64,000 nucleotides of DNA, taken from Peptococcaceae bacterium CEB3. GTDB lineage: Bacteria > Bacillota > Desulfitobacteriia > Desulfitobacteriales > Desulfitobacteriaceae. Position 1 is the stretch's first letter. The number at the start of each line of letters is the position of its first letter. Location: assembly GCA_001029295.1 (NCBI GenBank), contig LDXJ01000063.1:310001-374000 (forward strand), read 5' to 3'. Both the position numbers and the translations under genes were made by a program. The notes below the pieces were generated by a model, which was not told where the DNA came from, ran no database searches, and saw only the letters and a list, made by a program, of their open reading frames with translations. Below, piece by piece: positions 6,274-53,836 of this stretch.

Positions 6274-7460
<1,187 letters not shown>

Positions 7461-40002: not shown

Positions 40003-40728
40003 GTGTTTGTCGTTAATCCGTTTGGGGACTCGGCCGTGCATGTTCAGTTGGGTTCCGAAGTGAATGAGGCAGTATTTCATAAGGTCCGGGCCTTCGCGGC
40101 CTGGATGGAGGCGAAGGCGGACGAACGGATCGGAGAACTGATTCCGGGCTACCTGGCCGTCACCCTGTTCGTCCGTTCGGGGGCGGATGTGTCAGAGGTC
40201 GCGCGCCGGCTGGCGGAGCAAGGAGGGGCGTTTGAGAAGACCTTGGCGGAGGCGGCGGCCGGCCAAGGGAGAGTGGTGGAGATTCCGGTGTGTTACGGGG
40301 GGGAGTACGGTCCGGATCTCGAGTATGTGGCAGGTTATCACGGGCTGACAGCCGGAGAGGTCATCGCCCTCCACGCGGGGACGGAATACCTGGTGCACAT
40401 GCTGGGGTTCATGCCGGGTTTTCCCTATTTGGGCGGTTTGCCGGTGCGGTTGGCCACTCCCCGGCTGGCGACGCCGCGGGCGGAGGTGGCTCAGGGCTCC
40501 GTCGGCATCGCCGGCTCGCAGACGGGCATTTACCCTTTGGCTTCGCCGGGGGGGTGGCAGATTATCGGTCGGACACCTCTGCGCTTGTTTGATCCCGCAG
40601 AAGATCCTCCGACCCTTTTGCAGAGCGGGGACCGGATCAGGTTTAAAGCGGTGGGGAAGGAGGAGTATTCGCAATTATCGGACAAGAACAAGAACGAGAG
40701 CAAGAGCACGAACATGAACGGGAATTAG
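40003..40728 (+). CDS. pxpB: 5-oxoprolinase subunit PxpB
   Basis: 241 residues, KipI/allophanate-hydrolase subunit 1 family: N-terminal FGDSAVHVQLG, then HAGTEYLVHMLGFMPGFPYLGGL, RLATPR and GSVGIAGSQTGIYPLASPGGW. With PxpA and PxpC it hydrolyses 5-oxoproline to glutamate with ATP. The core ends near residue 225; the last ~17 residues (KNKNESKSTNMNGN) are read from a hexanucleotide repeat that also encodes, in another frame, the region before PxpC. GTG start 2 nt beyond AAAG, with GAGGGAG further upstream. Confidence 0.93.
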   Translation: MFVVNPFGDSAVHVQLGSEVNEAVFHKVRAFAAWMEAKADERIGELIPGYLAVTLFVRSGADVSEVARRLAEQGGAFEKTLAEAAAGQGRVVEIPVCYGGEYGPDLEYVAGYHGLTAGEVIALHAGTEYLVHMLGFMPGFPYLGGLPVRLATPRLATPRAEVAQGSVGIAGSQTGIYPLASPGGWQIIGRTPLRLFDPAEDPPTLLQSGDRIRFKAVGKEEYSQLSDKNKNESKSTNMNGN

Positions 40729-40859
40729 AACAAGACCGAGAACTAGAAGAAGAACGGGAACAAGAAGACCGAGAGCAGGAACAAGAACGAGAACAGGAAC
40801 TAGAACGAGAACAGGAACAAGAACGAGAACGAGAACAGGAACTAGACGAAATAGATCTG
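40674..40859 (+). repeat. Hexanucleotide array (GAACAA/GAACGA/GAACAG) at the pxpB/pxpC junction
   Basis: About 27 GARCRR-type hexamers at ~40683-40848. In pxpB's frame the first part reads Lys/Asn/Glu up to its stop. In pxpC's frame the whole array is open and reads Glu-Gln/Glu-Arg without any ATG, GTG or TTG. Confidence 0.85.
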
Positions 40860-41813
40860 CTGGAAATTATCCGTCCCGGGGCACTGTCGAGCGTACAAGA
40901 TCTCGGCCGGCCGGGGTATGGGCGCTTCGGTATTCCTCCGGCCGGTGCGATGGATCCTTGGAGTTTGTGGGTAACGAACGCCCTTTTGGGCAATTTGGCG
41001 GGCGTTGCGGCAGCGGAGATGACTTTGGCCGGGTTCAAGGCGCGCTCTCTGGCTCGCGTGGTGGTCGCTCTTGGAGGAGGAGAGGGAGAGTATTTCCTCA
41101 ACGGGCAGAGGATCGAAGCTTGGCGAACCCTGACCCTTAAGCCGGGCGATATTCTCGATATCGGAGGAATTTCGCACGGCTGTCGGGTTTATTTGGGTGT
41201 TCACGGCGGAATCGAGGTGCCGACAGTGTTGGGCAGCCGTTCCACCTATCTGCCCGCCTCTCTAGGCGGACAGGAAGGAAGGGCTTTGCGACGGGGCGAT
41301 ATTCTGCGCGGTCATCCTTTCCGGGGAATGCACATTTCTCGCCGTTTGCGGCCTCCTCTGCGACCGGTTTTTCCGGATAAGGTTGAATTGCGGGTGTTGC
41401 CGGGTCTGCATGCCGCGCTTTTTTCCTCCGGGGAGTGGGAAAGATTTCTGGCTTCGGATTATGCGGTGACGCCGCGCAGCAACCGGATGGGCTGCCGGCT
41501 GGCGGGTGAGGCTGTGAAAGCGCGCTCAGCCGGAAATCTGATCTCCGATGCTTTGGTCACCGGGGCCATTCAGGTTCCCCCCGACGGCGAGCCGATCATC
41601 CTTGGCGTTGATCGGCAGACGACGGGCGGCTATCCGGTGATTGCCACAGTCGTCACGGCAGACCTGGCCAAAGTCGGACAGCTGGCCCCGGGACAGATCG
41701 TCCGCTTCCGCGCAATTAGCCTGGCGGAAGCGCAAGAATTGAGAGAAGAGCAGGTTAGGTTCCTGCGCGCATTTTCATTATGGGGAAAGGAGACCTTCAT
41801 ATGTGGTCGTTAA
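40860..41813 (+). CDS. pxpC: 5-oxoprolinase subunit PxpC
   Basis: KipA/allophanate-hydrolase subunit 2 family. The conserved start EIIRPGALSSVQDLGRPGY is in frame from 40860, followed by FGIPPAGAMDPWS, GVHGGIEVP, SRSTYLPASLGG and DRQTTGGYPVIATV. Partner of PxpB and PxpA. The start is unusual: between an upstream stop at 40644 and ATG 40950 no ATG/GTG/TTG exists, and ATG 40950 would delete the conserved first ~30 residues. Candidates are CTG at 40857/40860, giving a normal length, or ATT at 40674, which has GGAAGGAGG 8-9 nt upstream and would add ~62 repeat-encoded residues. The coordinate given marks the conserved part only. Confidence 0.9.
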   Translation: MEIIRPGALSSVQDLGRPGYGRFGIPPAGAMDPWSLWVTNALLGNLAGVAAAEMTLAGFKARSLARVVVALGGGEGEYFLNGQRIEAWRTLTLKPGDILDIGGISHGCRVYLGVHGGIEVPTVLGSRSTYLPASLGGQEGRALRRGDILRGHPFRGMHISRRLRPPLRPVFPDKVELRVLPGLHAALFSSGEWERFLASDYAVTPRSNRMGCRLAGEAVKARSAGNLISDALVTGAIQVPPDGEPIILGVDRQTTGGYPVIATVVTADLAKVGQLAPGQIVRFRAISLAEAQELREEQVRFLRAFSLWGKETFICGR

Positions 41814-44018: not shown

Positions 44019-44996
44019 GTGAATTTAGTGAGCTACAAAGAGTTGTTGAATATGTATATCCCGCTTGTAGATTTTATTGCGGACATTATAGGTTCACATT
44101 GTGAAGTGCTGCTGCATGATATCGTGGATGTTGAGAACTCAGTGATTGCCATTCGCAACGGATATATTAGCGGCCGATATATAGGGTGTCCATTGACGGA
44201 TTTGGGCCTTAAGCTTCTGGAAAATAAAGCCTATTCGAGACAGAATGCCGTTGTCAATTATCGAAGCCGTACGGCTGACGGTAAAAAGCTGATATCCTCG
44301 ACCTATTATATCAAAGACGATCAAGGGGAATTGATAGGGATGTTATGCGTCAATATTTTAGATGCCCCGGATCATCCGATTACGAGGATGCCGTCCCGGC
44401 TCCCCCTGGCGGCGGTGGCCAACGACGGAGTGATTGTCAGCCCTCAAGCGGGGCACGCGGGAGACAGGCGGGAGCGGGGAAAAGAAGGGGTTCAAGGAGA
44501 CGGCAATGTAGGCTCTGAAGAAGACGGTGGGGAAAACGTTCAAGAAGGCGTTCAACAAAACGCCCAAGACAATGAGCAAGAAAATTCCCCAAAAGACCTG
44601 GAAATAAAAGCCAGCGGAGACCTCAAAGAAAACGCCCTAGAAACCACTCGAAAAACCATCCGAGAAAACGTTCAAGAAAACATTCGAGAAACCGCTCGAG
44701 AAAATACTCTAGAAGACGCTCGAGTAAATGCCCAAGCAGACGCCGGGGACGACCCTCAAGAAGAGGTCGCGGAGTTGCTGAGCACGTCCTTAGACCAGGT
44801 GGTTAATGACGCGGTAAAAAAAGTAATGGCCAAGTATGAGGTTTCCGGAGAAAGAATGTCCACCGAGGAAAAAAGCGCCGTTGTGCGAGAACTGCGGGAA
44901 AGCGGTATTTTTAAGATCAAGGGTGCAATCACGAAAGTGGCCAAAGCCTTAAAGACGTCAGAAAGCACTATTTATAGATATTTGGCAATGAAGTAA
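44019..44996 (+). CDS. YheO/DauR-type transcriptional regulator with expanded linker
   Basis: 325 residues. Residues ~5-115 are the YheO PAS-like domain (PLVDFIADIIGSHCEVLLHD, NGYISGRYIGCPLTDLGL, STYYIKDDQGELIGMLCVNI). Residues ~255-325 are the family HTH (ELRESGIFKIKGAITKVAKA, then STIYRYL). Relatives are ~210-240 residues. The excess is a Glu/Asn/Gln/Arg-rich linker made by 18 units of 12 bp (44532-44747; ENVQ, ENIR, ETAR). It probably controls the threonine-catabolism genes that follow. GTG at 44019 or at 44028, each with purine-rich upstream sequence. Confidence 0.88.
   Translation: MNLVSYKELLNMYIPLVDFIADIIGSHCEVLLHDIVDVENSVIAIRNGYISGRYIGCPLTDLGLKLLENKAYSRQNAVVNYRSRTADGKKLISSTYYIKDDQGELIGMLCVNILDAPDHPITRMPSRLPLAAVANDGVIVSPQAGHAGDRRERGKEGVQGDGNVGSEEDGGENVQEGVQQNAQDNEQENSPKDLEIKASGDLKENALETTRKTIRENVQENIRETARENTLEDARVNAQADAGDDPQEEVAELLSTSLDQVVNDAVKKVMAKYEVSGERMSTEEKSAVVRELRESGIFKIKGAITKVAKALKTSESTIYRYLAMK
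44532..44747 (+). repeat. 12-bp in-frame array (~18 units)
   Basis: Consecutive 12-mers such as GAAAACGTTCAA, GAAAACATTCGA and GAAACCGCTCGA, encoding tetrapeptides (ENVQ, ENIR, ETAR). They separate the sensor and HTH domains of the regulator. Confidence 0.85.
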
Positions 44997-51848: not shown

Positions 51849-52160
51849 AGGGCTAGTTTCTTACCACCGCAAGAGGAATTTACCGGACTTCGGCGAATTA
51901 CGAGCTAAAGAAATTGGAAGCGGCGGAGGGAGCGGAGAAGAGGGAGGGACTACAGAAAGGGCAAAGGGAGCCGGAGTGCCAGAGGGGAGGCAAACGGGAG
52001 AGAAAGGCAAGAGGCACACAAGAAAGGAAGGTGAGAGACAGAGGAAGGTGAGAGACAGAGGAAGGCGGGAGCCAGAGGAAAGCGAGAGACAGAGGAAGGA
52101 GGGAGACCCAGGGAGAAACGGAGGCTGAGATAAGAGAAAAGAACGAGAGGTGAAGAGAGA
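51849..52160. other. Purine-rich leader of pxpA
   Basis: No gene. The plus strand from about 51900 to 52135 is almost entirely purine and includes the 17-bp array. A frame through it (Arg/Glu/Gly-rich) has no ribosome site and is not believed coding. Confidence 0.5.
52031..52115 (+). repeat. 17-bp tandem array (5 copies)
   Basis: GTGAGAGACAGAGGAAG twice perfectly (52031-52047, 52048-52064), then three diverged units to 52115. It lies in the pxpA leader. Confidence 0.9.
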
Positions 52161-52913
52161 ATGCATGTCGATCTTAACAGTGACCTGGGTGAGAGTTTTG
52201 GCAGGTTTAAGATTGGTAGGGATGAGGAAATTCTCCGAGTGGTGACCTCGGCTAATATCGCCTGTGGTTTTCACGCGGGGGATTTCAGCGTCATGCACCA
52301 GACGATCAGGCTGGCGGCCGCGGGTGGGGCGGCGTTGGGTGCGCATCCGGGCCTGCCGGACTTGCAGGGTTTTGGACGGCGCTGGATGAGCTATGCGCCG
52401 GCCGAGGTCTATGATCTGGTCCTCTATCAAATTGGAGCGCTGGCCGCCTTGGCCAAGGGGGAAGGGTTGGCCCTCAGGCATGTCAAGCCTCATGGCGCCC
52501 TCTACAACCGGGCGGCGGTTGATCCGGAGATTGCCGCTGCAGTGGCGGCGGCAGTACGGGACTTTTCCCCGGCCCTGCGCCTCTTCGGACTGTCCGGGAG
52601 CCGTTTAATTGAGGCGGGTGCGGAAGCGGGCTTGGTTACGGTCTCGGAAGTCTTTGCCGATAGGAATTATAATGCGGACGGAACTTTGGTCTCTCGCAGC
52701 CAACCTGGGGCGATGCTTCACGACCCGGAGGAGATCGCCCGGCGGGTTGCAGGCATGGTGGAGAGCGGGAGTGTGAAAAGCATCACGGGGCAGGTCGTAT
52801 CCCTGAAAGTAGAAACGATCTGTCTGCATGGCGACGAATCCGGGGCTCTGGGTACGGCCCAAGCTATTAGGGAGGCTCTCCAGGCGGCCGGGATCACGGT
52901 CAAGGCCTGGTAG
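52161..52913 (+). CDS. pxpA: 5-oxoprolinase subunit PxpA
   Basis: 250 residues, LamB/YcsF family: [62 protein letters not shown] and the [15 protein letters not shown] segment. The catalytic/ligand subunit of the ATP-dependent 5-oxoprolinase with PxpB and PxpC, whose genes lie 12 kb upstream rather than adjacent as usual. ATG with GAGGTGAAG upstream. Pyroglutamyl peptidase follows. Confidence 0.95.
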
Positions 52914-52987
52914 GCAGTTCGGGTTCAGATGCGTATACACCGCCCGCGGGCTTGCCGCGGCGGGCTCGAACGGAAAGGAGTCTGAAA

Positions 52988-53836
52988 ATGGTTAAGAACA
53001 TCTTGCTGACCGGATTTGACCCCTTTGGGGGAGAAGAGGCCAATCCGTCCTGGGAAGCGGTCCGAGCCCTGGACGGAAGGTATTTGGCCATGGCAGTCTC
53101 GAGCGGGGGAGATCCCGCTGGAGAATATGCTGCCGGGGGAGATCCCGCTGGAGAATACCCTGCCGGAGGAGATCCCGCCAGGGAAAGTGCTCATGGTCGA
53201 GATCCCAGGCAAGAGCGGGCGCTCAAGCGCGATCCCGAGGGCAGAGACGTCAGCGAGGCGACGCCGGCTATGGGAGATCTCGGACAGGGAGAGGTTGAGG
53301 GTGGCAAAAACGGGTGGCAAATCGTCGTCAGACAATTGCCGACGGTCTTCGGTCGCTCGCTTGAGGTTCTGAAACAAGCGATCGAGGAGGAAAAACCGGC
53401 GGCGGTCATCTGTGTAGGGCAAGCGGGAGGAAGGCCGGACATCACGGTGGAGCGGATAGGAATCAATGTCGATGATGCCAGGATTCCGGACAATGCGGAG
53501 CAGCAGCCTGTGGATGTTCCCGTGGTTCGGGGCGGGCCGGCCGCTTGCTGGGCGACGCTGCCGATCAAAGGGATCGTCGGGGCCCTGCGAACCGCCGGAA
53601 TTCCCGCTTCCGTCTCCAACAGCGCGGGAACTTTTGTCTGTAACCATGTGCTCTACGGCTTGTTGCATTATCTGGCCCAAGAGGGCCACCTGATACCGGC
53701 GGGTTTTATTCACATACCGTATCTTCCCGAACAGGGTTGCAAAAATCCCGGGCAGCCCACGATGTGCCAAGCGACCGTGGTCAGGGCTCTGGAGTTGGCG
53801 GCTGCGGAAACCGTGCGCGCTGTCCGTCAAATATGA
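52988..53836 (+). CDS. pcp: Pyroglutamyl-peptidase I (Pcp) with repeat insertion
   Basis: 282 residues, C15 cysteine peptidase: [20 protein letters not shown], then the Glu in [17 protein letters not shown], Cys in [15 protein letters not shown] and His in [11 protein letters not shown], so the catalytic triad is intact. It removes N-terminal pyroglutamate from peptides, yielding substrate for PxpABC. The family is ~200-215 residues. The extra ~65 residues come from an insertion at ~38-105 containing five decapeptide repeats ([10 protein letters not shown] type) encoded by 30-bp units, in the loop after the first strand-helix. Whether the enzyme is active with it is open. ATG preceded by AAAGGAG. 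Confidence 0.93.
53105..53254 (+). repeat. 30-bp in-frame minisatellite (5 copies)
   Basis: Units encode [40 protein letters not shown] and [10 protein letters not shown] inside pcp. The first two are nearly identical, suggesting recent expansion. Confidence 0.9.

Follow-up and report, generated by a model that had tools for sequence, protein, structure and literature searches.

Where does the translation of pxpC start, if its reading frame offers no canonical start codon ahead of the conserved part of the protein? This question is raised by a stretch of 64,000 nucleotides (hereafter, the window) from Peptococcaceae bacterium CEB3, in which a hexanucleotide array occupies the 5' region of the gene. 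We compared the locus with that of Acididesulfobacillus acetoxydans (NZ_LR746496.1, 4,520,225 bases), the sole congener in the genome collection, both being acidophilic sulfate reducers, so that statements on the genus cover 2 genomes, and with more distant relatives.

The pxpB-pxpC locus and its missing canonical start

The genes pxpB and pxpC and the features of their junction lie on the forward strand. The gene pxpB (40003-40728), encoding subunit B of 5-oxoprolinase, which degrades pyroglutamate, starts with GTG, matches TIGR00370 (E=6.4e-69) and ends with a TAG (40726-40728) located within the hexamer array; its 3' end is shared with the extended pxpC frame and continues into the array. 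The open PxpC frame spans 40647-41813, and the proposed full extent of pxpC, encoding the 5-oxoprolinase subunit C, is 40674-41813 (379 aa). PxpC matched TIGR00724 over its full length (E=5e-87) with 291.9 bits, above the family cut-off of 230, as well as PF02626 (E=3.4e-86) and YbgK, the PxpC of E. coli (5dud, E=1.7e-49), while it scored 226 bits against the narrower equivalog NF045499, under its cut-off of 500. The genomic context is also that of pxpC, which adjoins pxpB and has pxpA in the same genome (window 52167-52883). An Rfam scan of the window found no RNA family. The source genome measures 5.3 Mb in 64 contigs, and the number of hexamer repeats rests on that assembly.

We read the PxpC frame codon by codon and found no ATG, GTG or TTG among the 101 codons from the TAA at 40644-40646 to the ATG at 40950, in agreement with a sequence-only reading of this locus that had pointed out the gap. 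Near-cognate codons are present at 40674 (ATT), 40677 (ATC), 40851 (ATA), 40857 and 40860 (both CTG), and further on at 40866 (ATT), 40869 (ATC), 40884 (CTG) and 40932 (ATT). The startless stretch is partly trivial, considering that GAN or CNN repeat codons, incapable of being starts, make up about 56 of the 101. The missing start is nonetheless more than chance, because the array-free sister species also has no ATG, GTG or TTG in the PxpC frame before the conserved PxpC N-terminus; its first canonical codons are a GTG 8 codons into this N-terminus and then the equivalent of ATG 40950. In more than one species, pxpC is thus devoid of any ATG, GTG or TTG able to start the conserved protein.

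The same reading had suggested aligning the pxpB-pxpC junction in relatives. Apart from lacking the array, A. acetoxydans has the same junction; the distance from ATT to CTG is 183 nt in the window versus 36 nt in A. acetoxydans, which is 147 nt (49 codons) less. As the start is missing whether the array is present (window) or absent (A. acetoxydans), it does not come from a sequencing error of the window assembly; this explanation was rejected, since the independently sequenced genome of A. acetoxydans, a finished assembly of PacBio reads with Illumina correction (PMC8982180), has the same absence. Moreover, the array does not account for the missing start, because A. acetoxydans has neither an array nor a canonical start. 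Judging from these 2 sequences, the lack of a canonical start is conserved across the genus, and the array, an in-frame expansion, is a separate matter.

We then have to consider ATG 40950, which is the first canonical start and the one that an automatic gene caller would choose, and from which PxpC would be translated with the upstream part left untranslated. Between the 2 species, codons 40857-40949 differ by 10 synonymous and 3 nonsynonymous changes (dN/dS 0.09), while the other frames of the same segment show the reversed pattern (Fisher p=1.6e-4). This segment evolves as coding sequence, under strong purifying selection in the PxpC frame, and therefore translation begins upstream of ATG 40950. 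It encodes the invariant QDLGR motif and holds the strands with which the modelled fold begins (60-68, 73-75), all of which a start at ATG 40950 would remove. In addition, this ATG has no Shine-Dalgarno and is buried in a stable hairpin (MFE -24.6), making it an extremely improbable start.

A related concern is that pxpC may be losing its expression in the genus, as a young pseudogene whose start has been lost. A deletion has indeed disrupted the neighbouring DUF969-DUF979 pair of A. acetoxydans, but both species have kept pxpB and pxpC intact, at dN/dS values of 0.09-0.19 (0.13 for pxpB, 0.19 for pxpC from 40950 onward), and pxpA is kept in both as well, so that we regard a decaying pxpC as very unlikely.

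Candidate start codons upstream of ATG 40950

Among 29 Firmicutes relatives, 28 possess an ATG, GTG or TTG within codons -15 to +2 of CTG 40857, in most cases between -4 and 0; the remaining relative and 3 others have a long open reading frame resembling a PxpB-PxpC fusion. The site at which the relatives start reads ATA GAT CTG CTG here (40851-40862), leaving ATA and CTG only. As proposed in the sequence-only reading, CTG 40857 does stand at the expected start, since Met1 of E. coli YbgK aligns exactly there. This alignment speaks for PxpC being made from CTG 40857/40860 or ATA 40851 by reinitiation after pxpB, with the array untranslated or serving only as the tail of PxpB, and so does the pxpB TAG of A. 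acetoxydans, which lies only 2 nt ahead of CTG-CTG. Most relatives also have an ATG at or near -2, where ATA is found here, and it is tempting to see ATA 40851 as a mutated ATG, the same change turning TGG into the pxpB TAG. However, neither species has a Shine-Dalgarno for CTG 40857, CTG 40860 or ATA 40851 (energies of -3.3 to -5.8 in the window, of -2.6 to -4.0 in A. acetoxydans), and the output of CUG is 0.86% of that of AUG (PMC11497404). In the window the pxpB stop lies 128 nt upstream of CTG, a long way considering that reinitiation is almost abolished at a distance of about 20 nt (PMC10666635), and the array past the pxpB stop is still open and codon-structured in the PxpC frame. We therefore find it rather unlikely that PxpC starts by reinitiation at these codons.

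The ATT at 40674-40676, conserved in both species, is our candidate for the start codon of pxpC, with the adjacent ATC 40677 as second choice. It is preceded by an extended Shine-Dalgarno, GGAAGGAGG (40655-40663), which lies inside the end of pxpB and is identical in A. acetoxydans. The duplex of GGAAGGAGG with the anti-Shine-Dalgarno reaches -14.5 kcal/mol, while the other start candidates range from -2.6 to -6.2, except the adjacent ATC, which shares GGAAGGAGG. A Shine-Dalgarno at least as strong is found for 1.2% of 246 ORFs and at 0.15% of random positions. In both species the strong Shine-Dalgarno is suitably spaced, and the whole arrangement (GGAAGGAGG, 10 nt, ATT-ATC) is conserved and occurs once per genome. 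The mRNA around ATT is open in both (MFE -6.6 and -4.8 versus a median of -15.3). The sequence-only reading had given the distance of this sequence from ATT as 8-9 nt; the spacer is 10 nt, which is slightly long and counts against ATT. As the Shine-Dalgarno lies in tail codons of PxpB (GKEEY), the conservation of GGAAGGAGG may partly reflect PxpB. Starting at ATT would also be a departure from the relatives, whose start is within about 4 codons of CTG 40857.

We asked whether AUU is used elsewhere in the genus. In infC, neither genome offers ATG, GTG or TTG, and only ATT AGC AAG is found at the usual place, suggesting that the genus most likely already uses an AUU start. The infC open frame upstream of ATT AGC AAG differs between the 2 species. 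A 60-kb syntenic screen for conserved startless ORFs gave an output dominated by antisense ORFs and conserved non-coding flanks.

The overlap of the 2 genes also has to be examined for another mechanism. The pxpB and pxpC frames overlap in a -1 relation, and the pair is found in a single long ORF in several relatives (the 4 mentioned above), so that -1 frameshifting within the overlap could produce a PxpB-PxpC fusion copying these genuine one-chain proteins. Nevertheless, no X XXY YYZ heptamer is found in the overlap of either species, the 2 weak slippery sites in the overlap of A. acetoxydans are not conserved, and the purine-rich mRNA of the overlap has little structure. Considering this, frameshifting has only a slim chance of being the answer.

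ATT is favoured over CTG because it combines a strong Shine-Dalgarno, open mRNA and the precedent of ATT in infC, while CTG suffers from the absence of a Shine-Dalgarno, the low output of CUG and the 128-nt gap to be bridged by reinitiation. The account that we hold to be probable is that pxpC is intact, translated most likely from AUU 40674 placed by GGAAGGAGG, and overlaps pxpB, with the array later expanded in frame. The almost perfect Shine-Dalgarno in the final pxpB codons would place initiation at this AUU, and since both lie in the end of pxpB, the 2 genes would overlap by about 55 bases in the window versus about 34 in A. acetoxydans. Such a layout would be older than the split of the 2 known Acididesulfobacillus species, neither of which has a normal pxpC start. 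An AUU start would presumably lower the output of pxpC to a fraction of that of an AUG start. The sequence-only reading had opposed a rare start codon to a charged extension of about 60 residues; our results favour both together (ATT 40674 plus 61 residues), while the CTG codons that it had put forward lose ground for want of a Shine-Dalgarno.

The hexamer array and the probable N-terminal extension

The array described in the sequence-only reading is real, as TRF called it at 40682-40846 with a period of 6/18 and 69-75% match. We delimit it as 56 codons of a degenerate GAR-CNN hexamer (40683-40850), in a junction 147 bases longer than that of A. acetoxydans. In the PxpC frame it reads Glu/Gln/Arg/Leu. 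It is unique in the genome, all 4 exact matches of a 4-hexamer pattern falling inside it, and the same pattern has no match in the A. acetoxydans genome. The array had been thought to be read in 2 frames, which holds up to the pxpB stop (about 8 of 27 hexamers) but not beyond; likewise, hexamer changes would alter both proteins for the first 8 or so copies but not for the rest.

No stop is present in the PxpC frame of the array, while the pxpB frame contains 5 and the third forward frame 1. The 30 array codons starting with G (27 Glu, 3 Asp) are invariant at positions 1-2, also past the pxpB stop, and all 28 substitutions of the array fall outside these positions. Such stop avoidance has P ~0.04 if all 28 substitutions are independent and 0.18 if half are, and it is weak evidence because repeat copies are not independent. 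The codon pattern is weakly consistent with translation in the PxpC frame.

A start at ATT 40674 implies an extension of 61 residues. In the account given above, a short purine-rich segment separating AUU from the conserved domain would have grown in frame by 147 bases in the window species, giving PxpC a highly charged N-terminus. PxpC probably carries this extension, mostly modelled as one helix: in the AlphaFold model, residues 2-55 form a single helix, joined to the first strand at 60, with pLDDT block means of 71-94 up to residue 50. Charged E/Q/R sequence is generally modelled as helix, and the model suggests only that the extension need not disturb the PxpC fold. The extension may be tolerated rather than useful.

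We also looked at tandem arrays more widely. In sampled stretches of the 2 Acididesulfobacillus genomes (464 and 400 kb) we counted 209 and 142 arrays per Mb, while 6 genomes of the same family or order, also sampled in stretches, gave 20-75 per Mb (together 24 in 800 kb, about 30 per Mb). The density in Acididesulfobacillus is thus about 6 times that of its relatives, which is more unusual than the probable AUU start of pxpC. Among arrays of at least 60 bp, the period is divisible by 3 in 47 of 72 (binomial p=3e-8). We tentatively suggest, at somewhat less than even chances, a genome-wide growth of degenerate arrays, many of them in frame in conserved enzymes and regulators, of which the charged helix of about 55 residues in the AUU-started PxpC would be one product.

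Several neighbouring loci were noted along the way. Between the domains of a YheO-like PAS/HTH regulator (44019-44996) stands a repetitive insert of the ENVQENIRETAREN type (44627-44743), and the A. acetoxydans counterpart of this regulator has a different repetitive insert. The pyroglutamyl peptidase (Peptidase_C15, 52952-53836) contains an in-frame array with a 30-bp period (53104-53178), and a repetitive insert is found in A. acetoxydans too. Just 5' of pxpA lies a 17-bp array (52025-52107); at this site A. acetoxydans has a larger array, with a 51-bp unit, in which the pxpA frame stays free of stops over about 110 codons. The transporter-like DUF969-DUF979 pair is intact in the window, and the A. 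acetoxydans deletion (stretch L007, ~6300-6500) runs from mid-DUF969 into the final part of DUF979, the remnants being joined out of frame.

Implications and comparison with known systems

Gene callers restricted to ATG, GTG and TTG would shorten PxpC by about 90 residues and conceal the overlap with pxpB. A conserved AUU on a catabolic enzyme offers a testable case for how far Gram-positive bacteria use AUU with an extended Shine-Dalgarno. Public proteome sets of A. acetoxydans (PXD022508, PXD045135) make the proposed AUU start of pxpC directly testable, the peptide QGQEEIDLLEIIRPGVQSSIQDLGRPGYGR being part of the PxpC extension predicted in this species. Moreover, a comparison of the 2 sister species, only one of which has the array, gives a before and after view of in-frame repeat expansion at a protein N-terminus.

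AUU starts with an extended Shine-Dalgarno are already known, and pxpC most likely adds one more case. As in infC of E. coli and B. subtilis, which starts with AUU (PMC1805508), the AUU of pxpC stands behind a strong Shine-Dalgarno. On the contrary, infC is autoregulated by IF3 and encodes a protein of ordinary length, while PxpC is a metabolic enzyme, for which no reason for control of this kind is known, and would have an N-terminal extension. In S. aureus, AUU and AUA starts all have an extended Shine-Dalgarno and give about 10% of AUG output in poor medium; pxpC resembles cvfC1 (AUU) and ccpN (AUA) in having a conserved non-canonical start with an extended Shine-Dalgarno in a Gram-positive, but those 2 starts were shown by Ribo-Ret and reporters, while that of pxpC is deduced from its sequence (PMC13009471). 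Y. pestis RcsD-Hpt is a further AUU case (PMC10191623). A similar annotation problem is posed by pncA of Borrelia burgdorferi, also a metabolic enzyme with an AUU start, a conserved N-terminus before the first canonical codon and an N-terminally short database annotation; it differs in having no tandem array and in being backed by protein and structure evidence (PMC13398362).

Finally, the pxpC array resembles the in-frame intragenic minisatellites of bacteria, being degenerate, with a unit that is a multiple of 3, and inside a coding frame. The usual intragenic tandem repeats of bacteria are in surface proteins or linkers. Unlike these, the array of pxpC is located N-terminally in a conserved enzyme, and part of it is shared by 2 overlapping genes.
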